A stretch of DNA of 64,000 nucleotides, from NCBI GenBank assembly GCA_017428325.1, contig JAFRRA010000002.1:186001-250000 (forward strand). Reading direction: 5' to 3'. The notes under the pieces were generated by a model that searched no databases, was not told the DNA's origin, and saw only the letters and a program-made list of their open reading frames with translations. The DNA comes from Bacteroidales bacterium. GTDB taxonomy: Bacteria > Bacteroidota > Bacteroidia > Bacteroidales > UBA932. The translations under genes were made by a program, and so were the position numbers. This document shows positions 44,679 to 63,995 of the stretch, piece by piece (the first letter of the stretch is position 1; each line of letters begins with the position of its first letter).

Positions 44679-47309
44679 ATGAAAAGAGTATTTCTCCTCC
44701 TTGCCTTTCTGGGCGCATCCGCCGCGTTGACAGCTCAGAAACATATCAGAATCAATTATGTGGGCTATCTCCCGAAGAGTGTCAAGGTTGCCGTTTATTT
44801 CGAGGAAAAGAGAGTGGACGCTCCGCTGACTGATGCGGAAAAGCTGGCGGTCCAGGTGAACGCCTCCGGACAGACAGCCTGGACAAGGAAGCCGGGATCC
44901 GTGTCCAAGGACAAGATCCCCGTTTCCGCAGATGCCGGCAATGAAGAGTTCGTTGTCTTTGACGCGGTGACAGACCTTCCGGCTTTCACAGGAAAAGCCA
45001 AGGCCGCAGATCCTTCCAAGTGGGTTATGAAAGAAGCGGCCCGTCTGGATTTCTCGGAACTTCAGAAGCCGGGCGGATATTATATCAGATACAAGGGCAC
45101 ATATTCCCCGGTGTTCAAGATAGGGGCGGACGTGTATGACGGGGCTGCGGATCTCCTGCTTTTCTATATGAGGCAGCAGCAGTGCGGCTACAACCCGTTC
45201 ACGGACACTCTTTGCCACCAGCTGGACGGTTACATAGTGGACCATCCTCAGAGAAGCGGGGAGAGGATAGATGTCCGCGGCGGCTGGCACGACGCTTCCG
45301 ATTACCTTCAGTATCAGACCACAAGCGCTACGGCAACCTATCATATGATGTTTGCCTGGAAGTGGATAGAGGACAAGAGCATATTCAGGGACCGTTACCA
45401 GGCAGACGGAAGGCCGGGAGCTAACGGAATTCCGGACATTCTGGACCAGGCCCGCTGGGGTCTGGACTGGCTGGTGAGGATGAATCCTGAGGACAGGGTG
45501 ATGTTCACCCAGATCGCAGATGACAGGGACCATATCGGATTCAAGCCGCCGCAGTTCGATACAGCTGATTACGGCTGGGGAGAGGGTAACGGAAGGCCTG
45601 TGTACTATCTTACCGGCAAGCCTCAGGGAATGGGCAAGTTCGGCAAGAACCGCACCACCGGAGTAAGCTCCGCCGCAGCCAAGTTCGCATCTTCATTTGC
45701 CCTTGGAGGAGAAGTTTTCTCAGCGATAGATCCGGACTTTGCAAAGAAGATTGCCGCCAAGGCTCCGGACGCTTACGAATATGCAAAGGAGTTTCCGGGC
45801 AATACCCAGACTGCTTGCTATGTTTCCAGATATTTCTACGAGGAAGACACATGGGTGGATGATGTGGAGCTTGCAGCAGCCACTTTGTATGAAACGACAA
45901 AACTTCCTGTGTACCAGGAAGAAGCTGATTATTATGGAGAGCAGGAGCCTGTCTCTCCGTGGATGGAACTCGGAAGGGGACGCCACTACCAGTTCTACCC
46001 GTTCATTAACCTCGGTCACTTCCTTCAGGCGGAAAGCGGGGACGAGGCCGTCCGCCGCAAATACACCGAGTTTATGAAGGAAGGTCTCCAGGACCTTAAG
46101 GACAGGGCCGGAGCAGAACCGTTTATGCACGGCATCCCATACCTGTGGTGCTCAAACAACCTTACCAGCGCCGCAGTAACCCAGGCCCAGCTTTACAGAA
46201 GACTTACCGGTGACACCTCATACGAGGAAATGGAAGCGGCTATGAGAGACTGGCTGTTCGGCTGCAACCCTTGGGGTGTTTCCATGATAATCGGCTATCC
46301 GAAGGGAGGTTTCCTGCCGACAGACCCACATTCAGCCTTCACTCTGGAACACAGGGAGATAACCGGAGGACTCATTGACGGTCCTGTATATAACTTCATC
46401 TTCTCGTCAAGAGCTGGCGGAGGTCTCCGTCAGCCAGACAAGACCCCATCGCTGAACAGAGGACTGGCAGTCTATCACAACGATATCGGAGACTATGCCA
46501 CCAACGAGCCTACAATGGATGGAACAGCAGGCTTGACATATTACTTCGCAACTTTGGAGCAGGAGGGGAACCGCCAGAAAAAGGAACTTGAACCGTCCAT
46601 CGCCAATGTGGTTAAGGACCGTTACGGCGCCATTCGCAGACTGGATCCGTCCAAGAAGGAAATCTACCTGATTTTCTCTGCGGACGATATGTTCAACGGC
46701 GGAGAAAAAATCCTCCAGTCGTTGAAGAAAGAAAAGATCAAGGGGTCGTTCTTCTTCACCGGCAATGCTCTCCGCAAGCCTGAGTTCCAGGATATTATCC
46801 GCCAAATTGTGGATGAGGGGCATTATGTTAGCGGCCACTCTGACAAGCATCTGCTCTACGCCCCTTGGGACGGCAATAGAGATTCAATGCTCATAAGCAA
46901 AGACAGTATCCTCGCCGATATCCGTCTGAACGCCAAGGAACTGGAGAAGTTCGGCATTCTTCAGAGCCAGTCCAAGTGGTTCCTCCCGCCTTACGAACAT
47001 TACAATACAGAGTCTGTAAACATCCTGTCCAGAGCTGGTTACAAGGTAATAAACTACACTCCGGGAACTGCTACTCCGGCAGACTACACCATTCCGTCCA
47101 TGAGCAGTTACACTACCGCCCAGACCTTGATAGACCGTCTCTACGCCTTTGAGCAGAAAAACACTCTCAACGGAGCAATCATACTTATTCATCCTGGCAT
47201 CGAGCCAACCCGTCCGGAAGGCGAAAGGCTCTACAACCGCCTGAGAGAAATAATCACGTACCTGAAGAAGAAAGGCTACACCTTCAAAACTTTCAAAGAC
47301 CTTGATTGA
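44679..47309 (+). CDS. GH9 glycoside hydrolase fused to a polysaccharide deacetylase domain, exported
   Basis: An 876-residue protein with a signal peptide (FLLLAFLGASAALTA). Residues 20-130 form the N-terminal Ig-like domain common before GH9. The (alpha/alpha)6 GH9 domain follows, with the catalytic Asp pair in GGWHDASDY near residue 200 and the acid Glu in NEPTMDGTAG near 608. From about 655 a NodB-fold domain appears: SADDM, then SGHSDKH near 718 with two metal His, and FLPPYEHYN near 768. GH9 cleaves beta-glucans, and the second domain removes N- or O-acetyl groups. The substrate is not known. A TATATTTG box at 44639-44646 precedes it. Confidence 0.88.
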   Translation: MKRVFLLLAFLGASAALTAQKHIRINYVGYLPKSVKVAVYFEEKRVDAPLTDAEKLAVQVNASGQTAWTRKPGSVSKDKIPVSADAGNEEFVVFDAVTDLPAFTGKAKAADPSKWVMKEAARLDFSELQKPGGYYIRYKGTYSPVFKIGADVYDGAADLLLFYMRQQQCGYNPFTDTLCHQLDGYIVDHPQRSGERIDVRGGWHDASDYLQYQTTSATATYHMMFAWKWIEDKSIFRDRYQADGRPGANGIPDILDQARWGLDWLVRMNPEDRVMFTQIADDRDHIGFKPPQFDTADYGWGEGNGRPVYYLTGKPQGMGKFGKNRTTGVSSAAAKFASSFALGGEVFSAIDPDFAKKIAAKAPDAYEYAKEFPGNTQTACYVSRYFYEEDTWVDDVELAAATLYETTKLPVYQEEADYYGEQEPVSPWMELGRGRHYQFYPFINLGHFLQAESGDEAVRRKYTEFMKEGLQDLKDRAGAEPFMHGIPYLWCSNNLTSAAVTQAQLYRRLTGDTSYEEMEAAMRDWLFGCNPWGVSMIIGYPKGGFLPTDPHSAFTLEHREITGGLIDGPVYNFIFSSRAGGGLRQPDKTPSLNRGLAVYHNDIGDYATNEPTMDGTAGLTYYFATLEQEGNRQKKELEPSIANVVKDRYGAIRRLDPSKKEIYLIFSADDMFNGGEKILQSLKKEKIKGSFFFTGNALRKPEFQDIIRQIVDEGHYVSGHSDKHLLYAPWDGNRDSMLISKDSILADIRLNAKELEKFGILQSQSKWFLPPYEHYNTESVNILSRAGYKVINYTPGTATPADYTIPSMSSYTTAQTLIDRLYAFEQKNTLNGAIILIHPGIEPTRPEGERLYNRLREIITYLKKKGYTFKTFKDLD

Positions 47310-51201: not shown

Positions 51202-51264
51202 GGCAAAATAATTGCATTCCTTACCAGGGCCTTTTTTTCGAAAAGCAATTTTTGGAAGAAAAAT

Positions 51265-51294
51265 TTGCATTTATATAATAAGTGTGTAAATTTG
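51265..51294 (+). promoter_or_regulatory. promoter of the fimbrial operon
   Basis: TTG at 51265-51267, a 19-base spacer and TAAATTTG at 51287-51294. It is the only full match to the consensus in the intergenic region. Confidence 0.65.
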
Positions 51295-51390
51295 CACTCG
51301 TTTACTGCTAATTTGGAGCATTTATAAAAAAGCCCATTTTATAATGCTAACAATGAGGATTCTACTTGTCGAATGAGTTGATTTTGTGAT

Positions 51391-51416
51391 GGATAAGATA
51401 AGTGTATCCTTTTTTT
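51391..51416 (+). terminator. weak terminator-like hairpin in the fimbrial leader
   Basis: GGATA (51391-51395) can pair with TATCC (51405-51409), followed directly by seven T. Five pairs make a weak stem, so it may be an attenuator or chance. Confidence 0.3.
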
Positions 51417-51451
51417 ATGCCCAGTAGTTCAGAACTTCGGAAATTTGATAT

Positions 51452-51460
51452 GGGGGGGGG
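51452..51460 (+). repeat. homopolymeric G tract (nine G)
   Basis: Nine consecutive G in otherwise AT-rich sequence, about 57 bases before the start codon of the first fimbrial gene. Such runs slip easily in replication and can vary expression between cells. Confidence 0.75.
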
Positions 51461-51516
51461 TAAACATCTGATCTCTAGGCGATTGATGAGAAAAATATAA
51501 TTATAGATTTAATATT

Positions 51517-52791
51517 TTGAAAAAGCTAGTATTAATTTTACTGCTGTCCCTCGGCGGATTGACGATGGCCTTCTCCCAGGAAAGGGAAATAGGTCATTTC
51601 GGCCGGCAGATATACTTCAAGAAGATGTATACTCTGCTGGATACGGCGTACAAAGACAATGCTAAGAATATTGCCTTCATTATGAATGAAGTAGGCCGTA
51701 TTCTCAAGGATCCCCAGATGGGCATTAACAAGATTTCTATTGTTTCATCCGCTTCTCCGGACGGATTCCATATCCGAAATGAGAAGTATTCCGATGAAAG
51801 AGCCGCAAACATCATTAAGGTGATCGAGGGGCGTTATCCGGAAACTAAAGATCTCTATGAGGTCAAGTCCCTGGGTATAGACTGGGAAGGAGCCATAAGG
51901 GTAGTTGAGGAGTCCGATGTGGTTTACAAGGACGAAGTTCTCAAGATCCTGAAGGAAACTCCTATCGAGGAAGAGAGGAATGGCCGCATGGTCTATCCTC
52001 GTCACGACCAGTTGTTTAAACTCAGAGGCGGTGTCCCGTACAAGTGGCTGACCGAGAATTCCTTCAAGGAGTTGAGAAAGACCGTTGTCGAGGTTTACTA
52101 CTGGAAGGAAATTCCTGAAGAGCCAATTGTAGAAAAAGACACTGTAAAGCCTGCTCCTGTAAAAGACACCGTTAAGTTTGTCGCACCGGTAATAGAGCCA
52201 ATGCCGCAGCCTTGCTTTGCAATCAAGACGAACGTTCTGTATGACTTTGCCGCAACTCCAAACTTTGGAATAGAGATACCTATTAAAAAGAAATGGAGTA
52301 TTGGTGCAAACTACACCTTCCCTTGGTGGATTTGGGCAGACAATGCAAGGGCTTACCAGATTCTTTACTGGGATGTCTATGCAAGACGCTGGCTTGGAAA
52401 CCGCGAGAAGAAAGACGTTCTTTCCGGATGGTTCGTTGGTCTGATCGGTGGTGGCGGCTACTATGATATCGAGCCTCACCGCGCTGTCCCTCACAGGGGA
52501 TATCAGGGTTGGGGCCTGACAGCCAGCCTGGAAGGAGGATATGCTTTCTATCTCAGCGACAGATGGAGCCTGGAGTTTTCAATTGCGGCAGGATATATGC
52601 ATACAGACTATGCCAAGTATAAAGCCGTGATGGGAGACGAGCACCTCGTTTGGCAGCACGACGACCACCGCGACTGGTGGGGACCAACCAAAGCAAACGC
52701 TTCTCTGGTTTACCTGATCTACCATAAGGGAGACAAGGCAAAGAGAAGACAAATTAGAGAACAAAGGAGGCACGAAAATGAGAATTACTAA
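51517..52791 (+). CDS. DUF3575 protein with OmpA-like periplasmic domain
   Basis: A 424-residue exported protein (signal LVLILLLSLGGLTMAFSQ). Residues 45-210 resemble an OmpA-type cell-wall-binding domain, including IVSSASPDGFHIRNEKYSDERA. Residues about 235-410 are DUF3575, a small outer membrane barrel starting CFAIKTNVLYDFAATP, with WYDVYARRWLG-like strands. The start is TTG, as no ATG is available before the signal peptide. DUF3575 genes commonly open Bacteroidales fimbrial operons. It overlaps the DUF5119 gene by 14 bases. The outer membrane position suggests a role in anchoring or export of the fimbriae. Confidence 0.85.
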   Translation: MKKLVLILLLSLGGLTMAFSQEREIGHFGRQIYFKKMYTLLDTAYKDNAKNIAFIMNEVGRILKDPQMGINKISIVSSASPDGFHIRNEKYSDERAANIIKVIEGRYPETKDLYEVKSLGIDWEGAIRVVEESDVVYKDEVLKILKETPIEEERNGRMVYPRHDQLFKLRGGVPYKWLTENSFKELRKTVVEVYYWKEIPEEPIVEKDTVKPAPVKDTVKFVAPVIEPMPQPCFAIKTNVLYDFAATPNFGIEIPIKKKWSIGANYTFPWWIWADNARAYQILYWDVYARRWLGNREKKDVLSGWFVGLIGGGGYYDIEPHRAVPHRGYQGWGLTASLEGGYAFYLSDRWSLEFSIAAGYMHTDYAKYKAVMGDEHLVWQHDDHRDWWGPTKANASLVYLIYHKGDKAKRRQIREQRRHENENY

Positions 52792-53878
52792 GTATATACT
52801 TTCACTAGCCGTTCTGATTGCGGCTTTTGGATGCGAGAGACGTCCATTGGAGTACTTCTACAAGCCGGAAGCCAGGATTATCCTGAATGTGGACTGGTCC
52901 GACTTCCCGGAGAAGCCTACAGGAATGACCATATTCCTGTTCAAAGAAGGTGATGCAGCCAGGTCTATCACCACATCCGTTGTGGACCAGACCGAGCTCA
53001 ACATCTCAGCTGGCCGTTACAAGCTCTTTGTAATGAACCAGTCCGTTACCGAGATTGGTGGTGTTAACTTCAAGGATATGGGATCATACGAGAATGCCGA
53101 GGCTGTGATTGCCAAGGTTGCTTCCAAGTGGTATGCGATAATGAAAGGCGTGATCGCTTCCAGTGAGGGAGAGGACCTGCCAGGTGTCGGTATCCAGCCG
53201 GATGACCTTGGTATTGCCATTGCACAGGAATTCACCATATCCGAGGAAGATATCAAGAACTTCCAGTATCAGTATGCGAAATGGCGTGAGGGTAAGGGCA
53301 AGAAGGATGGTGACGGAGAGGCACCGGACGACGCTCCTGTAGACAAGGACGCTCCTGCCATGAAGACCATCAACGTTGTTGCCCACAACGTGGTTTCCCG
53401 CCTCCACATCAAGATCAACTTCCAGAACATCCAGAACCTTGCTTCCGTGAGGGCTTCCATGGAGAACCTTGCCGAGTCTTTCTTACTGACCCAGGACAAG
53501 ACTTCCAGTGCAGAGGTTGCCCAGCTGATCGAGCAGTGGAGCCTTGTAAAGACAGGTGAGAAGGTTGGTTATGTTGAGGCTACCATCAGCACCTTCGCTC
53601 TTCCTAACGGTGTTACTTCAGTTTCAAACAGAAGTCCTCAGGCCAATGTCTTTACGGTTCAGGCTCTCCACGCAGACCACAAGACCATCACCTCAGAAGT
53701 TTTCAATGTCGGCGACAAGTTCAAGATAACTGTAAGACCTCAATACTACCGCCTCTTTATGGATCTCGAGGTTGGCCCTATTGTCCTTCCTGATATTACA
53801 CCAGCAGAAAATGGTGGAGGATTCATCACTACGGTTGTAGACTGGGACGAGTTGATTGATATTACTATTCCTATTTAA
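52778..53878 (+). CDS. DUF5119 lipoprotein, fimbrial accessory
   Basis: A 366-residue lipoprotein (signal ending AAFGC). The region YKPEARIILNVDWSDFPEKPTGMTIFLF near residue 30 is the DUF5119 hallmark, followed by a fimbrillin-type beta-rich core. A charged insertion (GKGKKDGDGEAPDDAPVDKDAP, residues about 172-193) is unusual. Relatives sit in Bacteroides fimbrial clusters and may act as anchor or minor subunit. It is translationally coupled to the DUF3575 gene through a 14-base overlap and lies 50 bases before the first fimbrillin gene. Confidence 0.8.
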   Translation: MRITKYILSLAVLIAAFGCERRPLEYFYKPEARIILNVDWSDFPEKPTGMTIFLFKEGDAARSITTSVVDQTELNISAGRYKLFVMNQSVTEIGGVNFKDMGSYENAEAVIAKVASKWYAIMKGVIASSEGEDLPGVGIQPDDLGIAIAQEFTISEEDIKNFQYQYAKWREGKGKKDGDGEAPDDAPVDKDAPAMKTINVVAHNVVSRLHIKINFQNIQNLASVRASMENLAESFLLTQDKTSSAEVAQLIEQWSLVKTGEKVGYVEATISTFALPNGVTSVSNRSPQANVFTVQALHADHKTITSEVFNVGDKFKITVRPQYYRLFMDLEVGPIVLPDITPAENGGGFITTVVDWDELIDITIPI

Positions 53879-53928
53879 TAATAAAGGAAACAAATTCAAT
53901 TATTAATAATTCCATTAATCATTTTTTC

Positions 53929-55080
53929 ATGAAAAAGTTTTTCTTAATTGCTGCAGCAGCTGTCGTTGCTTTTGCTAGCTGCTCCAAGAACGAGACACCT
54001 CTTGTTCAGGATCAGAACAAGGCTATCGGTTTTGGTACTTACACAGGTCGTGCCGTTACAAAAGCTGATCCTGATTTCTTCATTCCTAAGACTCAGACCT
54101 GGCTCCAGAAGCAGGCTTTCGGTGTTTACGCTTACAATACCGAGAATGTTGCTTTTGCCGGCTCTGTTGAAGATGCAAAGAAGTTCATGGTTAACGAGAA
54201 AGTTACTTTCTCCGGCGAATCTGCTTCAGATGCCACTAACTATGAAATGTACACTTATGAGAATAAGAAGTACTGGCCAAATGACGAGGCTAACAACCTC
54301 CTCACTTTCTGGGCTTACTATCCTTATGGCAAGCTGACCGGCGGCTATGGTGACAATACTTTCACCGCAGGTACCGATCCTACCAAGATGGTTGACCTTC
54401 TTGTTTCTGACGTTAAGGAGGATATGACTTACACTAAGGCTACGAAAGTTGGAACAGTAGGTGTTGTTCCTTTCACTTTCCATCATGCTCTTACAAGAGT
54501 TCAGTTCCTTGTTAAGGCTCAGGACGAATATGAGGGAGCTACAATTGTCCTTAACAGCCTTACCGTAAAGGGTGTTTATGACAATGGTACAATCACTCCT
54601 GCTTTTGCTCAGGGCAAAACCACTTATTCTTGGGCAACTCCTGTAGGTGGAGAGCCTGCAGTTTACGAAGTATGCGCTGGCGATGCTAACATCAACACTG
54701 ATGGTACTTATTTCCCAATCATCGTTGGAGAGGCTACTGGACAGGATGCACAGGCTGCCGCTGATACTATTAAGCACATTTACCTTATGATCCCTCAGAA
54801 CATCGCAGATGTAACTGCAGAGATCGAGTACACAGTCAAGAGTGATGACACTACTGTTGATCCTGTTGTCAACAAGGTAACTATTAACCTTGCAACCACT
54901 GCCGTTTCCGAGTGGGTTATGAACAAGAACATCCTTTACACCTTTGTTGTAGGTCTGAGGCCAATCGAGTTCACTGCAGTTGTTTCTGACTGGGATGATC
55001 TCACTGAAGTTGAGTTTATCATTCCTCCTGTAACAAATACAAGTGACAATGATAACCCTGCAACAGGAGAAGGAAACTAA
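53929..55080 (+). CDS. fimbrillin family lipoprotein, copy 1
   Basis: A 383-residue Mfa-like/FimA-type subunit with a lipoprotein signal ending AFASC (Cys about 18). The presumed processing site TGRAVTKAD is near residue 40-46. The C-terminal segment NKNILYTFVVGLRPIEFTAVVSDWDD, which is conserved in the copies, would carry the final strands used in polymer assembly. Codons are richer in T-ending forms than in the housekeeping genes, suggesting high expression. A 36-nt hairpin element follows its stop. The function as a structural fimbria subunit is inferred from family. Confidence 0.88.
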   Translation: MKKFFLIAAAAVVAFASCSKNETPLVQDQNKAIGFGTYTGRAVTKADPDFFIPKTQTWLQKQAFGVYAYNTENVAFAGSVEDAKKFMVNEKVTFSGESASDATNYEMYTYENKKYWPNDEANNLLTFWAYYPYGKLTGGYGDNTFTAGTDPTKMVDLLVSDVKEDMTYTKATKVGTVGVVPFTFHHALTRVQFLVKAQDEYEGATIVLNSLTVKGVYDNGTITPAFAQGKTTYSWATPVGGEPAVYEVCAGDANINTDGTYFPIIVGEATGQDAQAAADTIKHIYLMIPQNIADVTAEIEYTVKSDDTTVDPVVNKVTINLATTAVSEWVMNKNILYTFVVGLRPIEFTAVVSDWDDLTEVEFIIPPVTNTSDNDNPATGEGN

Positions 55081-55095
55081 TCAGTTTTAGTTAGA

Positions 55096-55131
55096 TTATC
55101 CGGGAGGGCCTGACCGCCCTTCCGGGTACCA
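55096..55131 (+). repeat. intercistronic hairpin element, copy 1
   Basis: A 36-nt block identical to the one at 56337-56372. It folds as CCGGGAGGGC with GCCCTTCCGG (10 pairs, one G-U). No T tract follows, so it is unlikely to be a terminator and more like an RNA-protecting or processing hairpin after the first fimbrillin gene. Confidence 0.85.
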
Positions 55132-55171
55132 AGAACAATGAAACAAATCATAATTATTAAACAACAACAAA

Positions 55172-56311
55172 ATGAAAAGAACAATTAAATCAATCGTTAA
55201 GCTGATGAGCTTTGGCTTCATCGGACTTGCACTGCTTTCCTGCAGCAAGAACGAGAATCCTGTTCAGGAGAAGGCTATCGGTTTCACCACCTACACAGGC
55301 CGTGCTGTTACAAAGGCAGACGCTTCTCTGATCGACAAGGGAAAAACCGAACTTCTCAGTGGTTCCAACTTTGTAGTTTACGCTTACAACACTGGTACTG
55401 CCAACTGGGCAAAAACCGTTTCCAGCGTATTTATGAATGGACAGACTGTAACTTATGCAGGTGGCGGAAAGACAGATCCTACCAAGTACACTTACAGCCC
55501 TCTCCGTTACTGGCCAAACGATGAGGCTAGCAACTTGCTCACATTCTTCGCATACTATCCAGAGGGTGGTACTGGCATCACTGCTCCTTCCAACGGTTGG
55601 GGTGCTTACACTTTCGAAGCTGAGACAGATCCTGCCGATATGATAGATTTCTGCCTTTCAGAGGTTGCAGCTAACCAGAAGTACAGCAGTACTAACAGCG
55701 GAACAGCAGGTGTAGTAAACATGAAGTTCTATCATACTCTTACTATGGTCAAGTTCCAGGTAAAGACAGACAAGGACTATAATGTTTACACAAATAACAG
55801 CACTACTCCAGATGCAGCTAATTCAACAGTCATTACTCTTAAGAGCATAAGCCTCGCAGCTGTAAAGACTACCGGTACTCTGACTCCAGACAACACTACC
55901 GCTGCTTGGAGCGCTCAGGCTGGAGCTACCGCTCTTGACGTATTCCCTACAGGAACCCAGGTCCTGACTAAGGATGCTGTATTCGTTCCTACAGGAACAG
56001 AGGCTGATGATGCATACCTTATGGTTCCTCAGGTTCTTGGTGACGACGTGATTGCTACCGTTACTTACACCGTTAAGACTGGAAATGACGCTGAGGTTAC
56101 AAATACTGCAAAAGTTCAGCTTAACTTGGCAAAAACCGCTGGTGATACTCCTACTGAAATAAAAGAGTGGAAGATGAACCAGAACATCGTCTACACCTTC
56201 GTTGTAGGTCTGAAGCCTATCCAGTTCATCGCTGAGGTTAACAAGTGGGATGATGAGACAGCCGCTGACTTTACTATCCCTACTCCTCCAGCAACAACTG
56301 TTACTCCTTAA
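55172..56311 (+). CDS. fimbrillin family lipoprotein, copy 2
   Basis: A 379-residue lipoprotein with signal LMSFGFIGLALLSC. The candidate processing site YTGRAVTKAD is at residues 41-50. The end segment NQNIVYTFVVGLKPIQFIAEVNKWDDE is near-identical in pattern to copy 1. Its signal peptide region is closely similar, even at DNA level, to copy 3, so copies 2 and 3 derive from a tandem duplication. The same 36-nt hairpin follows its stop. Confidence 0.88.
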   Translation: MKRTIKSIVKLMSFGFIGLALLSCSKNENPVQEKAIGFTTYTGRAVTKADASLIDKGKTELLSGSNFVVYAYNTGTANWAKTVSSVFMNGQTVTYAGGGKTDPTKYTYSPLRYWPNDEASNLLTFFAYYPEGGTGITAPSNGWGAYTFEAETDPADMIDFCLSEVAANQKYSSTNSGTAGVVNMKFYHTLTMVKFQVKTDKDYNVYTNNSTTPDAANSTVITLKSISLAAVKTTGTLTPDNTTAAWSAQAGATALDVFPTGTQVLTKDAVFVPTGTEADDAYLMVPQVLGDDVIATVTYTVKTGNDAEVTNTAKVQLNLAKTAGDTPTEIKEWKMNQNIVYTFVVGLKPIQFIAEVNKWDDETAADFTIPTPPATTVTP

Positions 56312-56336
56312 TTTCATATTAAGAGAGATAAAGTAT

Positions 56337-56372
56337 TTATCCGGGAGGGCCTGACCGCCCTTCCGGGTACCA
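56337..56372 (+). repeat. intercistronic hairpin element, copy 2
   Basis: Identical over 36 nt to the block at 55096-55131, again in the gap after a fimbrillin stop codon. The stem lies at 56341-56350 with 56357-56366. Confidence 0.85.
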
Positions 56373-56444
56373 GGGAACCGAGACGGTTCAAAAAAGAAGG
56401 GTTGAAACCTTCTCTGAGAAAGAAAAAATATAAGATTTAGAGAT

Positions 56445-57506
56445 ATGAGATTAAAAATCAGACAGATGATCAAGCTGATGAGCTTAGGCTTCATAGGGCT
56501 GGCACTGCTTTCCTGCAGCAAGGGAGACAGCGAGCCAGATTATCAGAAGCCAATGTCTTTTAACGGCTACACAGCTCGTTCTGCAACCAAGGCCAACGGA
56601 AGTTTCGTTACTGGAAACGAGCTTCCTGCAAACCAGGCTTTCGGCGTGTATGTTTACAACACGGGAACCAGTGAGACATTCGATCCTGAAAGCGTTTCCT
56701 CTTATGGAAGTTTCATGAGCGATGTTGCTGTAACCTATAATGGAGGCGGTGCTTCCGATGAGGAGAATTACACCTACAGCCCTCTCCGTTACTGGCCAAA
56801 TACCAAGGAGAGCAACCGACTTGCTTTCTTTGCCTACTATCCTTACAATGGTGCAGGCATAACAAGGACAGGTTTTGCAGATTTCACCTACACAGTTCAG
56901 GACACTCCTGCAAGCCAGATAGACTTCATGCTCAGCGATGTTGTTCCTAACCAGATTTATGGCGCTACAAATCACGGAACAGATGTAGTGAGCCTCAAAT
57001 TCTATCACATGCTTACCATGATCCGCTTCAAGGGCAAGACTGATGCTCCTTCTGGTGCCACTGTTAAGGTTGACGAGCTGAAGCTTATAGAGGTTTACAA
57101 CAAGGGAACTCTTGCTCCAAATGTTGCAGCTGCTTCATCTGAATGGACAGTGGACGATTCTCAGACCGCTGATTATGAGATTACTTTGAAAACATTAAAT
57201 CTTCCGAGCACTACGGTTGATCCGTCAGCCGAGGCTGCGCTTCTCGCAGAGGACAACCAGACATTGCTTCTGCTTCCTCAGACTATTTCTGACGAAAGTT
57301 TTATTTCAATAAAATATACCATCACAACAACAACTCCAGCAAGAACCATTAAAGAGACTGTTAACGTTACTCTTAAGGATCTGCTTGCAGAGTGGAAGAA
57401 GAATGCTCAGGTTGTCTATACGCTGAACATTGGTCTCCATCCTATCGAGATCAGTGCCAGTGCAGAAGACTGGCCGGTTGATGAGTATATAGTTATCGTT
57501 GAGTAA
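56445..57506 (+). CDS. fimbrillin family lipoprotein, copy 3
   Basis: A 353-residue lipoprotein with signal LMSLGFIGLALLSC, almost the same as copy 2. The processing-site equivalent is YTARSATKANG near residue 42-52. SYSPLRYWPN-like and FFAYYPYNGAG motifs in the body are shared with copies 1 and 2. The end segment NAQVVYTLNIGLHPIEISASAEDWP is more divergent. No hairpin follows, and the next gene starts 12 bases later. Confidence 0.87.
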   Translation: MRLKIRQMIKLMSLGFIGLALLSCSKGDSEPDYQKPMSFNGYTARSATKANGSFVTGNELPANQAFGVYVYNTGTSETFDPESVSSYGSFMSDVAVTYNGGGASDEENYTYSPLRYWPNTKESNRLAFFAYYPYNGAGITRTGFADFTYTVQDTPASQIDFMLSDVVPNQIYGATNHGTDVVSLKFYHMLTMIRFKGKTDAPSGATVKVDELKLIEVYNKGTLAPNVAAASSEWTVDDSQTADYEITLKTLNLPSTTVDPSAEAALLAEDNQTLLLLPQTISDESFISIKYTITTTTPARTIKETVNVTLKDLLAEWKKNAQVVYTLNIGLHPIEISASAEDWPVDEYIVIVE

Positions 57507-57518
57507 AAAATTTAGGAT

Positions 57519-59012
57519 ATGCGTATATATAGATTATTTGCAGTTTTGCTTCTGAGCGCCGGCCTGCTGGTTTCCTGCTCCAAGAGCGAGGGAATAGAAC
57601 AGCCTGTAATTCCTCAGGAGCCAGAAACTCCAACGGCAAAACTTCCGAACATTACATTCGGCAAGCCGGCGACCAAGGCTATGCTGAACGATGCAGATCT
57701 TAAGGAAATCGGAAGCAAGATTCATGTTTATGACATTCTGACTGGTTATACCGGAACAGTTATCGAAGGCTGGGACCCTGCTACTCAACCTTATATTGAT
57801 GAGGAAATCATCTACAATGGAGTAGAAGTATGGAAATATGCCTCCGAAGGAATCTATCCATGGACTGCAAACGGAATCCACAAATTCTTCGGATATCTGA
57901 CTTACGACAAGAAGTCTGACCTCAACGTTACAAGTCTGGTTAATCCAACGCTGAGCGGAACCACGATGACGGTTCCGGCCATTACATTCCTTCCGTCAAC
58001 AACTCAGTTTGACTTCCTGTATTCAAATCTTGTTGAAAGGGATGCCGCAGCAAAGGATTACAGCGTTGTTCCTTTGACTTTAAAGCACCTTTTCACAGCT
58101 TTCAGCGTTGTGGTCGAGAGTAAGACAGACACTAAAGTAAGACTTAACAGCATAACTTTCGAAGGGCTGAAGAACAAGAACAATGCAACTATCTCTTTTG
58201 CGGCAAATTCTGAGGTTACCCTCGGAACTTCTTCGGTAGACGGAAGTTTCTTCCCGACAATGTCATCTTATGTCGAGCTGGAAGAGGACGAGTCATATGA
58301 CGCTCTTACCAAGGTGAAGAATCCTGATTCCAAGACATTCTTCCTTCTCTGGCCTCAGAGCATCGATGATGTTGCTCCTACAAATCTTGAGACAGACCCT
58401 GCAAAGATCGCTCAGGGATATACTCATAAGTCATCAGACTCACTTATCGTTATTTCATATGATATGGAGGTTGCTGGAGTTTGGGAATCTCACTCCACAA
58501 GGATGAAGCTCCCTAAGATGGCATGGGAAGCCGGAAAGAAGACACACTTCATCATCCAGTTCTCCGACAAGCTCATCCAGCTTACCACAAAGGTTCTCCC
58601 TTGGGACTACAACGAGTATGACGTAGACTACTCCGAGGGAACAGTTGTGGTTCCTACCGGACTTAAGTTTGACGCATCAACCTGTAGCGTTTCAGGAAAT
58701 GTTGCAACTGTGGTTTCCGGTAAGAACCCTGTCGGAACATTCACCATCATGGCCCCTGTTGGCGGAACCTGGATGGTAGGAATGACTGGTGACACTGAAT
58801 ACTTTACCATTACACCTTCATCAGGCATTATCGATCCTAACGGAGCTGAATCCGGAAGAGTAACCCTGACTGTCACTCCGAACCTCGGCCTTGCAAGACC
58901 TACCGACAAGCAGATCAGACTGAAGTTCACTGTTACCGCCGCCGGAAGGGAAATTGATGCTCAGAGTGAAATCAACCGTGATGACTGGATTATATTACTC
59001 CCTAAGAATTAG
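57519..59012 (+). CDS. fimbrillin-like lipoprotein with C-terminal Ig-like extension
   Basis: A 497-residue lipoprotein (signal ending GLLVSC). The N-terminal two-thirds is fimbrillin-like, with FGKPATKAM as the processing-site equivalent near residue 48-54 and IQFSDKLIQLTTKVLPWDYNEY as the last strand region. Residues about 385-490 add a separate domain with WMVGMTGDTEYFTITPSSG and RVTLTVTPNLGL, which looks like a BACON or Ig-like fold and may bind a ligand. It could be an adaptor or minor subunit. Confidence 0.78.
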   Translation: MRIYRLFAVLLLSAGLLVSCSKSEGIEQPVIPQEPETPTAKLPNITFGKPATKAMLNDADLKEIGSKIHVYDILTGYTGTVIEGWDPATQPYIDEEIIYNGVEVWKYASEGIYPWTANGIHKFFGYLTYDKKSDLNVTSLVNPTLSGTTMTVPAITFLPSTTQFDFLYSNLVERDAAAKDYSVVPLTLKHLFTAFSVVVESKTDTKVRLNSITFEGLKNKNNATISFAANSEVTLGTSSVDGSFFPTMSSYVELEEDESYDALTKVKNPDSKTFFLLWPQSIDDVAPTNLETDPAKIAQGYTHKSSDSLIVISYDMEVAGVWESHSTRMKLPKMAWEAGKKTHFIIQFSDKLIQLTTKVLPWDYNEYDVDYSEGTVVVPTGLKFDASTCSVSGNVATVVSGKNPVGTFTIMAPVGGTWMVGMTGDTEYFTITPSSGIIDPNGAESGRVTLTVTPNLGLARPTDKQIRLKFTVTAAGREIDAQSEINRDDWIILLPKN

Positions 59013-59018
59013 TAAGAT

Positions 59019-61286
59019 ATGAAAAGATATATATTTCTGTTGGCAATCTCAGCCTTGGTTCTAGCTTCCTGCTCAAGGGAAGAGAACTCTCTTAAAGTAG
59101 AGGAAAAGAGCGGTATCGCGATTGATGTCGTATGTTCCACTCTGACTCCTTCTACCAAAGCCGGAATTTCCGGAACCAAGCCTGGTGAAGACGCATACGA
59201 TGAGAATATCATCAAGACAATTGACTACTATTTCTATCCGGAAGGTGCTACAGACGCAAATTCTGTACTTCACGCAAGGGTTGCTCCTAACCAGTTGAAC
59301 CAGTACACTGTCAATGTCAGCATAGACGAGGCCATGCTCAACACCATTCTGTTCCCTAGGCCTGTTAACACCTGCCAGGTTGCAGTTCTGGTCAACTATC
59401 CTGGCGAACACCCGGCTACAAACACCAAACTGGCAGACCTGGAGGCCCTCAGTCTGGTTATCCAGCTTACAGATGCGGGAAAGGGCAAGGACCAGTCCGA
59501 GTTCGTGATGTTCGGTGTTCAGCAGGTTGAGCTTATCAGCCGCAAGAACACTCTGATAGCAAATCCTATAGTTGATGTTCACAGGATTGCCTGCAAAATA
59601 ACCTTGGATGCATACGTGACCCCTAGCACCATAGCTCCTGTCAAACTGATAGACGGCGGTGTAGAATACACCCTGAACCAGGAGTGGCAGCCTATGATCG
59701 ACCAGATGTACATCTATCTTGAAAATGGTGTAAGCAACGCTATTGTCAGCGGAGACCCTGAAGCAACCAAGCCTTACAACTACTTCAAGTATTCACAGAG
59801 GGAGTTCACTGGTGAGATGGCAACCCATAACATTAACGGTCAGCCTTACCAGTTCCACAAGTCATATCCGTTCTACACATATCCTCAGACCTGGGCTACC
59901 GCTGATCCTAAGGAGCCGTTCCTGAAGCTTGTCCTTCCTTGGACCAGAATTGCAGGAGACGATCACGAGACCAACCCAGACTGGGAAACCAGGCCTCATA
60001 CCTGGGGAAGCATCCAGAAGCAGTTCTACTATCGTATAATGCTTCCTCACGATGCAACAGGTTTTGTAAGCAACAACTGGTATCACATCAATTTGGATGT
60101 GGCCATCCTGGGTAGCGATATCGACGATGCTTCTGTAGACATCGAGGGAACTTACTGGGTTGTTCCATGGGGTTCTGCAGACCCTGTTGAGGCTGACATA
60201 AAGGGTTCAAGATACCTTTCTGTATCCCAGCTCAGCCATACTATGTACAACACCACAACCCTGGCTATACCTTATGTAACCAGCAACAAGTGCTCGATTA
60301 CAAACCTTAGTGTAAGGCAGTATAACTTTGTTTCCGGTACATATACTAACTATACTTCTCAAGCTACAAGCGGCAACTGGGTTACCCTGGATGACAACAA
60401 TAATATCGTCATCAATCATACACTTGACAACAATATTTCAAGTGCCACATTCGATGTCGCCCCTTACGAATACTCGTTCCGCATCAGGCACGAGGATTCT
60501 GAAGGCGCCACCTACTATCGCGACATTACCGTAAAGCAGTATCCTGCAATGTACATTGAGGAGCATCTTTCCAACGGTTACGCCTTTGTAAAGGGTACTG
60601 GCAACGCAACGGCTTCAAGTACGATTTATGATAATAATACTTCGTTAGGCAATAACTTGCGCGATATGGGTACTATGGTTCAGCGTTCTACTGTTAATGG
60701 TCAGGGAACAAACAATAACCAGCACCAGTACACTATTCACGTTACCGTGCTTCCTGAAGGCTCCACCAGCTCTATCGGTGACCCTAGGTCTTCTACACCA
60801 AGCACCCTGAACAGCGGTATCACCGAGCTTGACAATTACAAGCCGGCGGCTGATGACACTCAGGATATAATTGCTCCTGTTTTCAGAATCGCTTCTTCAT
60901 ACGGTAAGACACAGAACATGACTTACGAAGGAGCACAGAAGAGATGTGCCGCATATCAGGAGAATGGTTATCCTGCAGGAAGATGGAGACTTCCGACTCA
61001 GGCCGAAATTGAGTATCTGATGACTCTTTCCAATGCCAACAAGATTCCTACCCTGTTTGACCCTGAGCCTACAGCCGGTTACTGGGCAGGAGGAAGGCTC
61101 TTTATGATTAGGACAAATGCGGGTCTCCTGCAATTCGTTAATGCAACCGGAATAACTCCGAACAACAAGTCTTACACAATTGGAGGTACAACTTACAATG
61201 TTTGGGCCCGTTGCGTATATGACGAGTGGTACTGGGGCTCTGAACAGGTTGATCCTACGGAGACTTGGGGAGGTTATAAAGACTAA
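59019..61286 (+). CDS. large fimbrial tip-like lipoprotein
   Basis: A 755-residue lipoprotein (signal ending LVLASC). The start contains STKAGISG, the same Thr-Lys-Ala position as the fimbrillins. The N-terminal half resembles fimbrial minor proteins (YYFYPEGATDANSVLHARV). Near residue 635 begins a module with YEGAQKRCAAYQENGYPAG, WRLPTQAEIEYLM and VWARCVYDEW, the pattern seen at the end of many Bacteroidales fimbrial tip and Fibrobacter-type surface proteins. A receptor-binding tip role is inference. It is 6 bases from the previous gene. Confidence 0.72.
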   Translation: MKRYIFLLAISALVLASCSREENSLKVEEKSGIAIDVVCSTLTPSTKAGISGTKPGEDAYDENIIKTIDYYFYPEGATDANSVLHARVAPNQLNQYTVNVSIDEAMLNTILFPRPVNTCQVAVLVNYPGEHPATNTKLADLEALSLVIQLTDAGKGKDQSEFVMFGVQQVELISRKNTLIANPIVDVHRIACKITLDAYVTPSTIAPVKLIDGGVEYTLNQEWQPMIDQMYIYLENGVSNAIVSGDPEATKPYNYFKYSQREFTGEMATHNINGQPYQFHKSYPFYTYPQTWATADPKEPFLKLVLPWTRIAGDDHETNPDWETRPHTWGSIQKQFYYRIMLPHDATGFVSNNWYHINLDVAILGSDIDDASVDIEGTYWVVPWGSADPVEADIKGSRYLSVSQLSHTMYNTTTLAIPYVTSNKCSITNLSVRQYNFVSGTYTNYTSQATSGNWVTLDDNNNIVINHTLDNNISSATFDVAPYEYSFRIRHEDSEGATYYRDITVKQYPAMYIEEHLSNGYAFVKGTGNATASSTIYDNNTSLGNNLRDMGTMVQRSTVNGQGTNNNQHQYTIHVTVLPEGSTSSIGDPRSSTPSTLNSGITELDNYKPAADDTQDIIAPVFRIASSYGKTQNMTYEGAQKRCAAYQENGYPAGRWRLPTQAEIEYLMTLSNANKIPTLFDPEPTAGYWAGGRLFMIRTNAGLLQFVNATGITPNNKSYTIGGTTYNVWARCVYDEWYWGSEQVDPTETWGGYKD

Positions 61287-61298
61287 TATCTTTGGATT

Positions 61299-63995
61299 AT
61301 GAAAAAGCTTATATATATATTCTTGATTCTGCTCGGCTTCACTTCCTGTATGAAGGAAGACAGGACAACTTTGGAGCCTGATGCAACAGACAAGGTTGAC
61401 ATTATCTTCGGAGTAAATCTTCCGGAGCCTCTCACCAAGGCCATGGCTGACCAACCTCAGGTCCAGAACCTCAGAGTAGCGGTATTCGGAGGATCAGGTT
61501 ACCTTAAGGAATATGTCCAGGCTGAACCTGTGGAATTGGCTACCACCAATACCACCAGATATGCATACAAGGTAAGACTGTCTCTGAGCGACAGCCACTT
61601 GAAGGTGCATTTTATTGCCAATGGTCCTCAGACCTTGCCTTTCAAGTATGAGGATGAAGTGATGTCTGTCCAGACCACTACCGGAAACCAGGATGCATAT
61701 TGGCAGAGAATAGAGCTTCCAAATGGTATTACCGCAAAGAAAGACGATGACGGTGTTTATATCAAGGTTAACGGAGAGTATGTGGTTTCTGACGAGACCA
61801 AGGCCCATTTCCAGGATATCCCTCTGATCAGAAACTTCGCAAAGGTTACTGTTACCAGTGAAACTTCTGATTTCGTTCTTGATTCATACGCTTTGGCTTA
61901 CAAGCCAACTGCTGGCAGTATTGCCGCATACAACAAGACTACCAGCCAATTCATAATGAACTACAAGAATCTTACATTTGCTGAGATCAAGAGTTCTTAT
62001 CCAGGAAACATTCCAGCCACGGCAACTATAGACAAGACCATCCCTGCGGCAGGTGATTTCTCTTCAAATCCTGCCTATATGTTCGAAAGGCCGATCCCTA
62101 CCGAAGACGCTACCTTCCTTCTGGTTTACGGACGTTACAAGGATGGCCACAACTACTATTACAGGATAGAGCTTCAGGATGCAGACGGCTATTATGCCAT
62201 CTACAGGAACTTCCAGTATACTGTAAAGATCAAGGGTATTCTAAGAGCGGGTTCTGACACTCCTACTGATGCTGCCAACTCAGCCGGTTCCGGTGACGTT
62301 TCAACCGACCAGAAGGCAGAGAACCTGACCGACGTTTCCGATGGTGTGGCCCGTATCTTCGTTGAATACACAGAAAAGACACTTGTAGGTCAGGGAACTG
62401 TAAGCCTCAAGTTCAAGTTCCTGCCTGACGCCTCTACAGATACTCCTGCCAACAATCAGGTTACAGTAACTGTAGGTGAACCGGGTGCTTCCGGAGCTGT
62501 AATTGACGGTGCAATCACCATTGCTTCTGCCGATGACGCTCAGGGTTGGAGGGAACTCACATTCACTTCAACTACTCCGAGTGAAGTTACCAAGACCCAG
62601 ACAATAAGGGTAACCGGAACTTATGGAAGCAATTCAAAGCTCTTCAGAAATGTAACCTACAAGCTGATGAGCATTCAGGATATGCAAGTTGTATGCGACC
62701 CTCATGATCTGCTTAAGGGCAAGGGAGAGAAGGTGGATGTCCTTATCAAGATACCTAAGGACCTTCCTCGTTCTATCTTCCCGCTCCAGCTCCAGATAGA
62801 GTCAAGTGCGCTCAGCATCACTCCTGACAACGATAACCTTCCTGTTCAACCAGGTAAGTCAATTATAAACGGTACCACAAGTTCTTACCAGTTTATTAAG
62901 ACCCTGGATTATAATGATTATCTCGCCCTTCAGGATGCATCAACAGATGAGTGGGTGACAGTCCGTACTCATTTCAAGACAACCAAGGAGTCCAGCGACT
63001 GTGATGTATATGTTGCAAATGAGTATTTCCACACAGCTCACGATAACTTCATTACTTACACTATGAAGTACTTCGACAATCTGCAGTTCGACAATTATAC
63101 CCAGAATGCCGCAGATATGCCAGTTGAATTCTCGTTCCAGATGGATGCTACGGATGTTCCTGAGAAAGTTACTCTCAAGCTGGTAGGTCTGAAGCCTGCT
63201 GCAGGCAGCACTCTCGTTCAGGTTGCAACCAACACTTACGAGTACACGACTACTGGTTCAACTGCTTCTGTCGATCTGCTCACATCAACAGATGACGGAT
63301 ACTACAGAGTCGATATCAGTGCGCCACATTACTATGACGCTAATTTGGATAATCTGCTAGAGTACATTAACCCAAGGCTTACTGGAACGACTGTTCCATT
63401 TGGAATAGGACAGAATGTTCCGTTTGCATTCAGCTATGTTTACGGTGCAGTAGAACCAGTGACATTCACATTGAGCAACCTTACCCCGCCAACAGGTGAT
63501 ACACGTTTCACTTCACTTGGCGGTAACAGATGGCTGTTCACTCCAAACAACAGCAATCAGGCTCAGTCATTTAACTTTGTAACAACAAGCTTTGCTGCAA
63601 ATGTTTCAGTTACTTCAATGGAAGGTGATCATTATAATTCAGCCGGTCCATTTAATCTGTCACCAGCTTTCACTTCAGTAACTGTTGTAGCTCAAGGTCT
63701 GAACTTTACAGGCACTAACAGACCAGGTAATAACCAGACAGTGACCTTATACACTTCTTCTGGACAGGTTGTCGGTACTTGTACAGTATCTCAGTATGGT
63801 AATATGTTGAACAGATCTTATAGGAATAATGCTGCTATAACCATTGATATGTCTAAGTTCACGACAGATGAGGAAGTTTACTTCGGTTATGGTAACTACT
63901 ACTCAACATCTTCATATACATTGACTCAGTTACGTAACGCTACCACAGGCAATAGGCTGAATATTAACAATTTCGGCACCACCAGGCCTTGGTAA
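61299..63995 (+). CDS. DUF4906-type fimbrial lipoprotein
   Basis: An 898-residue lipoprotein (signal ending LGFTSC), complete and ending 5 bases before the window edge. PEPLTKAMAD near residue 42-51 repeats the Thr-Lys-Ala position. The body has FERPIPTEDATFLLVYGRYKD and YYRIELQDADGYYAIYRNFQYTVKI near residues 265-310, which mark the DUF4906 family of fimbrial cluster proteins. Several Ig-like stretches follow. The end region is rich in Thr, Ser and Asn. It may be a second tip or adhesive subunit. The cluster may continue beyond 64,000. Confidence 0.75.
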   Translation: MKKLIYIFLILLGFTSCMKEDRTTLEPDATDKVDIIFGVNLPEPLTKAMADQPQVQNLRVAVFGGSGYLKEYVQAEPVELATTNTTRYAYKVRLSLSDSHLKVHFIANGPQTLPFKYEDEVMSVQTTTGNQDAYWQRIELPNGITAKKDDDGVYIKVNGEYVVSDETKAHFQDIPLIRNFAKVTVTSETSDFVLDSYALAYKPTAGSIAAYNKTTSQFIMNYKNLTFAEIKSSYPGNIPATATIDKTIPAAGDFSSNPAYMFERPIPTEDATFLLVYGRYKDGHNYYYRIELQDADGYYAIYRNFQYTVKIKGILRAGSDTPTDAANSAGSGDVSTDQKAENLTDVSDGVARIFVEYTEKTLVGQGTVSLKFKFLPDASTDTPANNQVTVTVGEPGASGAVIDGAITIASADDAQGWRELTFTSTTPSEVTKTQTIRVTGTYGSNSKLFRNVTYKLMSIQDMQVVCDPHDLLKGKGEKVDVLIKIPKDLPRSIFPLQLQIESSALSITPDNDNLPVQPGKSIINGTTSSYQFIKTLDYNDYLALQDASTDEWVTVRTHFKTTKESSDCDVYVANEYFHTAHDNFITYTMKYFDNLQFDNYTQNAADMPVEFSFQMDATDVPEKVTLKLVGLKPAAGSTLVQVATNTYEYTTTGSTASVDLLTSTDDGYYRVDISAPHYYDANLDNLLEYINPRLTGTTVPFGIGQNVPFAFSYVYGAVEPVTFTLSNLTPPTGDTRFTSLGGNRWLFTPNNSNQAQSFNFVTTSFAANVSVTSMEGDHYNSAGPFNLSPAFTSVTVVAQGLNFTGTNRPGNNQTVTLYTSSGQVVGTCTVSQYGNMLNRSYRNNAAITIDMSKFTTDEEVYFGYGNYYSTSSYTLTQLRNATTGNRLNINNFGTTRPW

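Follow-up and report, generated by a model that had tools for sequence, protein, structure and literature searches.

Conserved intercistronic hairpins divide a predicted type V fimbrial operon in a Bacteroidales bacterium

Introduction

REP/BIME repeats are palindromic intergenic elements that follow genes and occur in many copies per genome. Structured RNAs of the malE–malF kind lack an intrinsic terminator, follow a more stable upstream gene and are proposed to resist 3′–5′ exonucleases (PMC5927463); in the parts of that source considered here, 17 of 26 such structures fall inside the following gene's coding region, and no common structural family is named. The same parts describe the papB–papA hairpin of Escherichia coli P pili, an unrelated pilus type in which unequal mRNA stability determines how much major pilin is made and the hairpin, lying 5′ of the downstream gene, shields it. 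Among fimbriae built from lipoproteins, the long fimbriae of Porphyromonas gingivalis contain FimC, FimD and FimE as minor components, according to the sections of PMC3647041 covered here. Here we analyze a 64,000-nucleotide stretch of a Bacteroidales genome (the window), in which two conserved hairpins divide a fimbrial operon, separating two codon-adapted fimbrillin genes from the tightly packed, less adapted genes 5–8.

Results

Eight open reading frames occupy the plus strand of the window between positions 51517 and 63995, in the order gene 1 to gene 8:

51517..52791, plus strand, gene 1: DUF3575 outer-membrane β-barrel with an N-terminal domain and a TTG start (PF12099, 1.7e-36; Autotransporter beta-domain, 2.8e-8)
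52778..53878, plus strand, gene 2: DUF5119 lipoprotein (PF17145, 1.1e-28)
53929..55080, plus strand, gene 3: fimbrillin (PF13149, 5.5e-23; codon adaptation, CAI, 0.747)
55172..56311, plus strand, gene 4: fimbrillin (PF13149, 6.5e-17; CAI 0.748)
56445..57506, plus strand, gene 5: fimbrillin opening the tightly packed downstream group (PF13149, 5.2e-26; CAI 0.664)
57519..59012, plus strand, gene 6: fimbrillin with an extra C-terminal domain (hhalign 98% to the fimbrillin profile, residues 3–367)
59019..61286, plus strand, gene 7: FimD-type tip adhesin (NF052322, 2.1e-99)
61299..63995, plus strand, gene 8: second large lipoprotein (residues 1–330, hhalign 95.5% to the FimD profile)

Consecutive genes are separated by −14, 50, 91, 133, 12, 6 and 12 nt, in agreement with the initial annotation, which had described eight same-strand genes with gaps of 6–133 bases or overlaps. 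The family identities it proposed are likewise recovered, by PF12099, PF17145, PF13149 and NF052322, giving an operon that encodes one DUF3575 protein, one DUF5119 lipoprotein and four lipoproteins of fimbrillin type, followed by two large products, a tip protein of the FimD family and a second lipoprotein that is FimD-like. Among the fimbrillins, hmmscan detects PF13149 in genes 3–5, and gene 6 has 34 bits against PF13149 in the genome search, no hmmscan match to it and a He_PIG match below cut-off (E 0.005). The same annotation named two large adhesin-like lipoproteins. Gene 7 passes the curated FimD-family NF052322 cut-off (334 bits versus 170). Its profile, searched against the Protein Data Bank (PDB), hits PG49 antigen chains (3e-4), and a weak Lcl_C match near its C terminus stays below cut-off (4e-5). 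Gene 8 does not reach the 170 bits of NF052322 and has no named family above cut-off; its N-terminal part is FimD-like, the approximately 570 residues beyond position 330 have no assigned fold, a Fimbrillin_C match falls below cut-off, and its profile aligns with genes 3–5 in the signal-peptide region only (hhalign, 36%). In sequence-profile searches of the PDB, genes 1, 6 and 8 gave no significant match and gene 2 a weak one only (5cag, E 0.031).

A fimbrillin profile built from genes 3–5 and their relatives matches the solved structures 4qb7 (E 5e-16) and 3ufi (3e-5), both labeled uncharacterised or hypothetical by their depositors and both of which we take to be fimbrillins. Two features place the locus with type V fimbriae: PF13149, the fimbrillin sequence family, lies above cut-off in genes 3–5, and genes 2–8 each encode a lipobox-type cysteine after a hydrophobic stretch, as expected of lipoprotein subunits and seen on inspection of the translations by eye. 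By sequence comparison, an S-C-S-K motif is invariant across ten fimbrillins, as is an arginine (R41 of gene 3, within YT-x-R; 10/10), a candidate site for the Arg-specific cleavage by which type V fimbrillins open their groove to an exchanged strand. The cluster adjoins hisS in seven Bacteroidales genomes. Gene order and the upstream neighbor are kept at high identity in five other genomes of the genus, and a truncated locus (L109) likewise supports conservation of the order, so the operon is not a chance arrangement. The proposed comparison of gene order with other Bacteroidales genomes thus finds it conserved within the genus and, together with the profile matches to solved structures, upholds the fimbrial reading of the locus; the evidence supports regarding that earlier interpretation as incomplete, not wrong. 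It did not mention the hairpin pair, the run of nine G or the TTG start of gene 1. No separate usher was seen at the operon locus. As judged from sequence, the locus belongs with the fimbrial operons of the FimA/Mfa1 type (type V), an already known kind, and is in itself ordinary; we infer that all eight gene products could belong to one fiber.

As in the P. gingivalis FimA/FimB/FimCDE system, the locus combines lipoprotein fimbrillins with a tip gene of the FimD family that follows the major subunit, and has several accessory genes downstream. It differs in having one or two codon-adapted fimbrillins together with two further fimbrillin-type genes, in opening with the DUF3575 and DUF5119 genes, and in encoding a second FimD-like protein. 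The window operon also carries two hairpins:

55097..55128, plus strand, RNA hairpin 1: 13-bp stem with loop CTGACC, the stem starting 16 nt after the gene 3 stop
56338..56369, plus strand, RNA hairpin 2: 36-nt core identical to that of hairpin 1, the stem starting 26 nt after the gene 4 stop

The two hairpins occupy the two long gaps of the operon and are identical across 36 nt, with folding energies of −25 kcal/mol for hairpin 1 (0 of 200 shuffles as good) and −24 kcal/mol for hairpin 2 (1 of 200). No further copies were found in the 88.9%-complete genome. At the seven hisS-adjacent loci, a hairpin is present at 9/9 boundaries read between fimbrillins upstream of gene 6, a count that includes one string common to genomes G029 and G003. 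A covariance model detects the hairpin in 136 of 398 genomes of the family, which carry 1–6 copies each, and in 6 of 392 other genomes sampled from the order; since 262 of the 398 family genomes have no match at the threshold and strict filters used, the hairpin is not required by such operons in general. Reverse-strand matches in an earlier search (8/39) reflect the palindrome itself and are excluded by the stricter threshold. Rfam 15 at gathering thresholds reports only a tRNA in the window, and searches of six hairpin loci up to E 10 returned six sub-cut-off matches, none over a hairpin.

The consensus comprises a 13-bp GC-rich stem, a YTGACC loop and a 3′ flank of CCAA (C in 112, C in 84, A in 107 and A in 78 of 113 hairpins), usually with no U tract. 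Across 74 distinct rows, 95.7% of cells are paired and all 13 base pairs show changes on both sides, amounting to 245 two-sided-change cells compared with 72.1 in shuffles (0 of 500 reach 245) and at most 57 in slid controls; because most matches are 41 nt long, these counts depend little on the alignment. The loop is conserved while the stem drifts, with TGACC missing in 11 of 102 strings, a conservation biased by the search in that the first covariance model partly fixed the loop.

The hairpin lies on the sense strand, a median of 7 nt past the stop codon and 18.5 nt ahead of the next start (94 same-strand neighbors on each side). Outside the genus locus, 102 of 106 distinct hairpins have a same-strand open reading frame ending within 60 nt upstream and 103 have one starting within 110 nt downstream. 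Neighbor contexts were taken from high-scoring matches, not a random sample, and many matches come from one genus (g22), with pairs that are not independent. Upstream families (51 scanned) include Mfa_like_1 (10), SusF_SusE (9) and TIG (9), and downstream families (52 scanned) include BACON (21), alpha-amylase (10), GH26 (10), Mfa_like_1 (10), SusG_CBM58 (7) and Mfa2 (6). A frequent order is a fimbrillin or SusE/F-type protein, the hairpin, and then a fimbrial protein or SusG-type enzyme. The element resembles the malE–malF kind in that a structured RNA lacking the features of an intrinsic terminator follows an operon's upstream gene, and is unlike it in forming one covarying family with a common loop in two unrelated kinds of surface operon.

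Like REP/BIME repeats, the hairpins are palindromic, intergenic and placed after genes, and they differ in being strand-constrained and in having two copies found in the genome. A reading as a plain fimbrial operon, with hairpins that have no function or represent a dispersed repeat, would suit the 36-nt identity of the two copies, as repeats can show, and the commonness of palindromes between genes. We consider this very unlikely given the few copies per genome, the two-sided changes in all stem pairs, the nearly invariant strand and position, and the tie to codon adaptation described below; we rejected the dispersed-repeat reading on copy number and strand.

Codon adaptation, our proxy for expression, was computed against 16 translation-cluster genes of the organism's own genome (one of which resembles rpoA), and this single reference was used for all genomes. 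CAI is higher upstream than downstream of the hairpin in 93 of 99 pairs (86 of 90 under stricter gene calls), compared with falls in 10/43 control pairs before the hairpin, 30/49 after it and 48/97 ordinary adjacent pairs. When matched for amino acids, the fall occurs in 76 of 82 hairpin pairs and in 18 of 48 non-hairpin pairs at the same loci; a rule that the hairpin follows the more abundant cistron would, by this proxy, describe those 76 of 82 pairs. Counted by clusters of upstream proteins, the fall is seen in 38 of 42 at 40% identity and 18 of 22 at 30%, the widest clustering. Tandem arrays are mixed: among four consecutive arrays, CAI falls after the second hairpin in L021 only and not in L198, L208 or L215. 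In the window operon, genes 3 and 4 lie at the reference mean (0.747) and genes 5–8 at 0.66–0.69, and CAI likewise drops past the last hairpin in the five other operons reaching gene 8. Real expression would be expected to fall across the hairpin as well. Gene 4, downstream of hairpin 1, equals gene 3 in codon adaptation, here and in G022, which is more in keeping with a hairpin that protects the gene before it than with one that lowers the gene after it.

A partial transcription terminator, or attenuator, reducing transcription into the minor genes would also stand between predicted high and low genes, and the hairpins are strong enough for such a role (−24 to −25 kcal/mol), with 12 of 113 satisfying the U-tract rule of the terminator scan. 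The remaining 101, including both window copies, fail that rule; the 3′ flank is CCAA, no T run longer than 3 lies within 20 nt in 94 of 113, and the window copies, neither of which joins a GC stem to a U tract as an intrinsic terminator does, are missing from the terminator list. Given the 101 of 113 copies that lack a U tract and the equal adaptation of genes 3 and 4, we treat partial termination as a rival reading, and a quite improbable one. A protein or small-RNA binding site controlling either downstream translation or signal-dependent decay is in our judgment rather unlikely: the YTGACC loop and CCAA flank are kept despite stem drift and the next start codon is close, yet part of the loop's conservation comes from the search model, and the partner genes are diverse with no obvious common signal. 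Such binding could be combined with 3′ protection.

Two further elements were read in the leader of gene 1:

51264..51294, plus strand, Bacteroidetes-type promoter candidate TTTG-N19-TAnnTTTG, read from sequence
51452..51460, plus strand, G9 run, candidate slippage (phase-variation) tract, 56 nt upstream of the TTG start

The promoter match that the initial annotation placed before the operon is recovered ahead of gene 1, although the scan overall does not rise above shuffles (25 matches versus 21.7). In the candidate TTTG-N19-TAnnTTTG, which we take to be the Bacteroidetes promoter consensus, TTG and TAAATTTG are conserved in 4/4 aligned leaders (that of the window operon and those of G022, G003 and G014). 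The TTG start of gene 1 is conserved in 7/7 leaders.

Separately from the hairpin question, the G9 run could act as a slipped-strand on/off switch of the operon, a candidate we retain for this leader only and regard as unlikely. It is the sole G9 or C9 in the genome, and G014 carries a G10, its own sole run of at least 9, similarly located 54 nt ahead of the start. Against this, the run is missing from 5/7 leaders, homopolymers are error-prone in metagenome assemblies and the tract here was read from an assembly, and 80 poly-G runs of the genus (after removal of three duplicate loci) sit in mixed contexts, 48 of them intergenic by our gene calls. Many of these runs lie 36–306 nt upstream of lipoprotein genes whose coding strand carries the G. 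Others are intragenic or near contig ends, and several belong to further repeat-like contexts; poly-G runs as a genus-wide switch were rejected.

Discussion

We give even chances to a reading in which the hairpin is a 3′-protecting intercistronic element that allows one mRNA to supply stalk or binding protein in quantity but only small amounts of tip protein or enzyme. One promoter would produce an mRNA common to the operon genes, with genes 3 and 4 as the predicted abundant shaft fimbrillins, genes 5–8 as a putative FimC/D/E-like complex of adaptor and tip made in small amounts, gene 2 as the probable base or anchor protein and gene 1 as a presumed outer-membrane partner. A conserved hairpin lies directly 3′ of each cistron predicted to be abundant; following cleavage in the downstream cistrons, it would stop 3′–5′ decay and shaft messages would outlive tip messages, making decay, rather than termination or translation, the presumed cause of the difference. 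The same role may apply in the carbohydrate loci of the family, where the hairpin lies between binding proteins of SusE/F type and enzymes of SusG type.

A broader proposal, which we hold tentatively and think somewhat more apt to fail than to stand, is that within one Bacteroidales family a sequence-recognized hairpin (YTGACC and CCAA, bound by a putative factor) is a general mark of high expression here and low expression after in fimbrial and carbohydrate-uptake surface operons, a modular stoichiometry signal not described before. Searches of open-licence PMC literature found no description of the hairpin in the portions covered, which included parts of PMC8040213, PMC9723704, PMC7366714, PMC10994844, PMC5927463, PMC3647041 and PMC11868660. 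In the portion of PMC8040213 covered, thousands of candidate structured RNAs are predicted, and the hairpin may be among them; its novelty in print is unproven.

These results bear on how lipoprotein fimbriae and Sus-type systems could keep shaft or binding protein in excess of tip protein or enzyme although one operon encodes both. The hairpin mark would predict the major subunits in unstudied operons and, if real, would offer a ready-made part for tuning gene ratios in Bacteroidales.

Operon organization and conservation

Open reading frames read in the window (contig 1, bases 186001-250000, of a 1.95 Mb host genome in 7 contigs that is 88.9% complete) bear out the positions and gaps of the eight fimbrial genes proposed in the initial annotation. 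Its family names also hold: a DUF3575 barrel (gene 1), DUF5119 (gene 2), fimbrillins (genes 3-6) and a FimD-family protein (gene 7), with gene 8 FimD-like in its N-terminal part. The description of the operon stands, and the operon is an ordinary member of its class; the part of the locus worth following is a hairpin element.

51452-51460: run of nine G in the leader
51517-63995, + strand: eight-gene fimbrial operon
55097-55128: hairpin after gene 3
56338-56369: hairpin after gene 4

The operon lies 3′ of a gene that we take to be hisS, a tRNA-Met and a terminator-like hairpin. It ends at 63995, and a DUF5106 gene starts ~150 nt further on. Beyond this come a second DUF3575 gene and one encoding a DUF3868/TPR protein, the central portion of which is similar to the N-terminal region of gene 1 (all three neighbors in L006, 2149-5300). 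Elsewhere, a fifth Mfa_like_1 match falls in a 714-aa open frame (L005; G000 C1 404464-405237), and window 44679-47309 encodes a single protein with a CelD_N domain, a GH9 cellulase and a C-terminal polysaccharide deacetylase domain.

Direct search found a gene 7 relative in 6/39 genus genomes, host included, and in all five others the operon lies 3′ of hisS; a DUF5106 gene follows within 2 kb in 4/4 relatives whose fetched stretch extends that far. A seventh genome with the operon, RUG12577 (L109), is cut by the contig end inside its second fimbrillin. All four named relative records come from metagenome assembly, with yak rumen the source of one and RUG names, presumably for rumen genomes, on the other three. 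Three PF13149-type fimbrillins precede gene 6 in the host and relative G022, and two in the four other operons reaching gene 8. Identity to the host is 94% for hisS versus 48% for FimD in G014, and 81% versus 85% in G023, a mismatch expected if species exchange operon segments. In relatives G029 and G003 (L020 and L022) the fimbrillin gaps are almost identical while hisS is 81% and 93% identical to that of the host, a pattern that on sequence comparison likely reflects species exchanging fimbrial segments. FimD-family proteins scoring above the cut-off are present in 32/199 genomes of the wider family, and this fimbrial kind is therefore common.

G runs in leaders

The G9 run, 56 nt before the start of gene 1, is the sole such run in the host genome. 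G014 carries a G10 (L023 5403-5412) 54 nt before the start, and no other G run in that genome reaches nine; the five other orthologous leaders lack such a run. The leader run may be a slippage switch, of a kind whose length variation assemblies cannot reveal. At many G9-G12 runs of the genus (L034, L055, L063, L073, L074, L075, L081 and L094), the sequence that comes next is TA-rich, with the pattern TAA..TTAATCA..TTACA. The runs lie mostly 5′ of lipoprotein genes, several with a terminator-like hairpin after the TA-rich text and sometimes a small ORF between, and the combination looks, from its sequence, like a recurring element. At L063 and L064 (G008 C24, 42440 and 49499) a gene and its G9-bearing upstream region occur twice, in opposite orientation ~7 kb apart.

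A conserved RNA hairpin between fimbrillin genes

A repeat search revealed a 36-nt sequence that recurs unchanged, once in the gap 3′ of gene 3 and once in that 3′ of gene 4; it folds into a 13-bp stem capped by the loop CTGACC (-25 and -24 kcal/mol for the two copies). The host genome holds no third copy at up to 3 mismatches. Across seven genomes the hairpin occupies 9/9 boundaries read between fimbrillins before gene 6 (two each in the host and G022; one each in G023, G029, G003, G014 and L109); the gap before gene 3 has none among the boundaries read, and a model search found no match between genes 5 and 6. Model R1, built from the 8 strings of these boundaries (G029 and G003 have the same string), gave 29 matches at E up to 0.01 in 24/199 family genomes and 8/25 genera. 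Model R2, built from 31 matches and used at E up to 1e-4, found the hairpin in 136/398 family genomes and 9/25 genera, at 1-6 copies per genome. It found the hairpin in only 7/393 genomes drawn from the order, the host among them, and a third model again gave 7/393, with the strict filters of these wide searches losing weak matches. R2 finds two matches in the host even at E up to 1, and Rfam 15 contains no match.

The element is an RNA structure. Two-sided changes occur in 11/13 pairs among 29 distinct rows and in 13/13 among 74, with covariation scores of 0.549 (0.203 shuffled) and 0.748 (0.209 shuffled) that 0/500 shuffles reach in either case and that slid controls fall far below. Genus strings by themselves show two-sided change in 2 pairs and are too similar to reveal covariation. 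The loop contains TGACC in 91/102 distinct strings, a loop that the first search model favors, and the 3′ flank reads CCAA (C 112, C 84, A 107, A 78; n=113).

Outside the genus locus, a same-strand ORF ends within 60 nt upstream of 102 of the 106 distinct hairpins, and one begins within 110 nt downstream of 103. A separate gene call placed 98/115 contexts between genes; the remaining 17, inside an ORF by a crude caller, most likely reflect spurious long ORFs. A lipobox-like motif occurs in 77/94 same-strand downstream genes. In a Pfam scan of about half of the contexts (51/102 upstream, 52/103 downstream), upstream families were fimbrillins, SusE/F and TIG proteins, and downstream families BACON, amylase, GH26, SusG CBM58, fimbrillin and Mfa2; at E 0.001 many upstream proteins, some truncated by the locus end, matched no named family. 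Carbohydrate-type loci (e.g. L142-L145, L156, L176-L178, L186-L192 and L225-L238) place the hairpin between a SusE/F- or TIG-type gene and a BACON-bearing or amylase, GH26 or GH5-type surface protein, families tallied across half of the contexts rather than assigned per locus.

Codon adaptation falls across the hairpin

Codon adaptation, a proxy for expression, was scored against 16 ribosomal-cluster genes of the host chosen by eye (15 ribosomal proteins and one gene that looks like rpoA). The reference genes average 0.747, which genes 3 and 4 equal at 0.747 and 0.748; both exceed 0.732, the 90th percentile among 39 genes of the window. Values are lower for gene 2 (0.709) and genes 5-8 (0.66-0.69). 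The five other operons extending to gene 8 likewise drop after the last hairpin. Family-wide, the gene upstream has the higher score in 93/99 hairpin pairs (86/90 with stricter gene calls; 38/42 or 18/22 when upstream proteins are clustered and each cluster counts once), compared with 10/43 pairs before the hairpin, 30/49 after it, where the fall is small, and 48/97 ordinary adjacent pairs. Amino-acid-matched comparison gave 76/82 hairpin pairs versus 18/48 non-hairpin pairs. GC3 was rejected as the cause of the fall, being higher upstream in only 25/82. Counting against an expression reading, 3/4 consecutive tandem arrays (L198, L208 and L215) show no fall after the second hairpin.

Two roles for the hairpin were weighed, transcription termination and protection of the upstream gene. 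Hairpins that shield an upstream cistron from 3′-5′ decay have precedent in malE-malF and programmed decay, and in papBA mRNA decay sets the pilus subunit ratio (PMC5927463). Because 101/113 hairpin copies have no U tract and genes 3 and 4 are equally adapted astride the first hairpin, we favor protection over termination: the hairpin would shield the upstream gene's mRNA from 3′-5′ decay.
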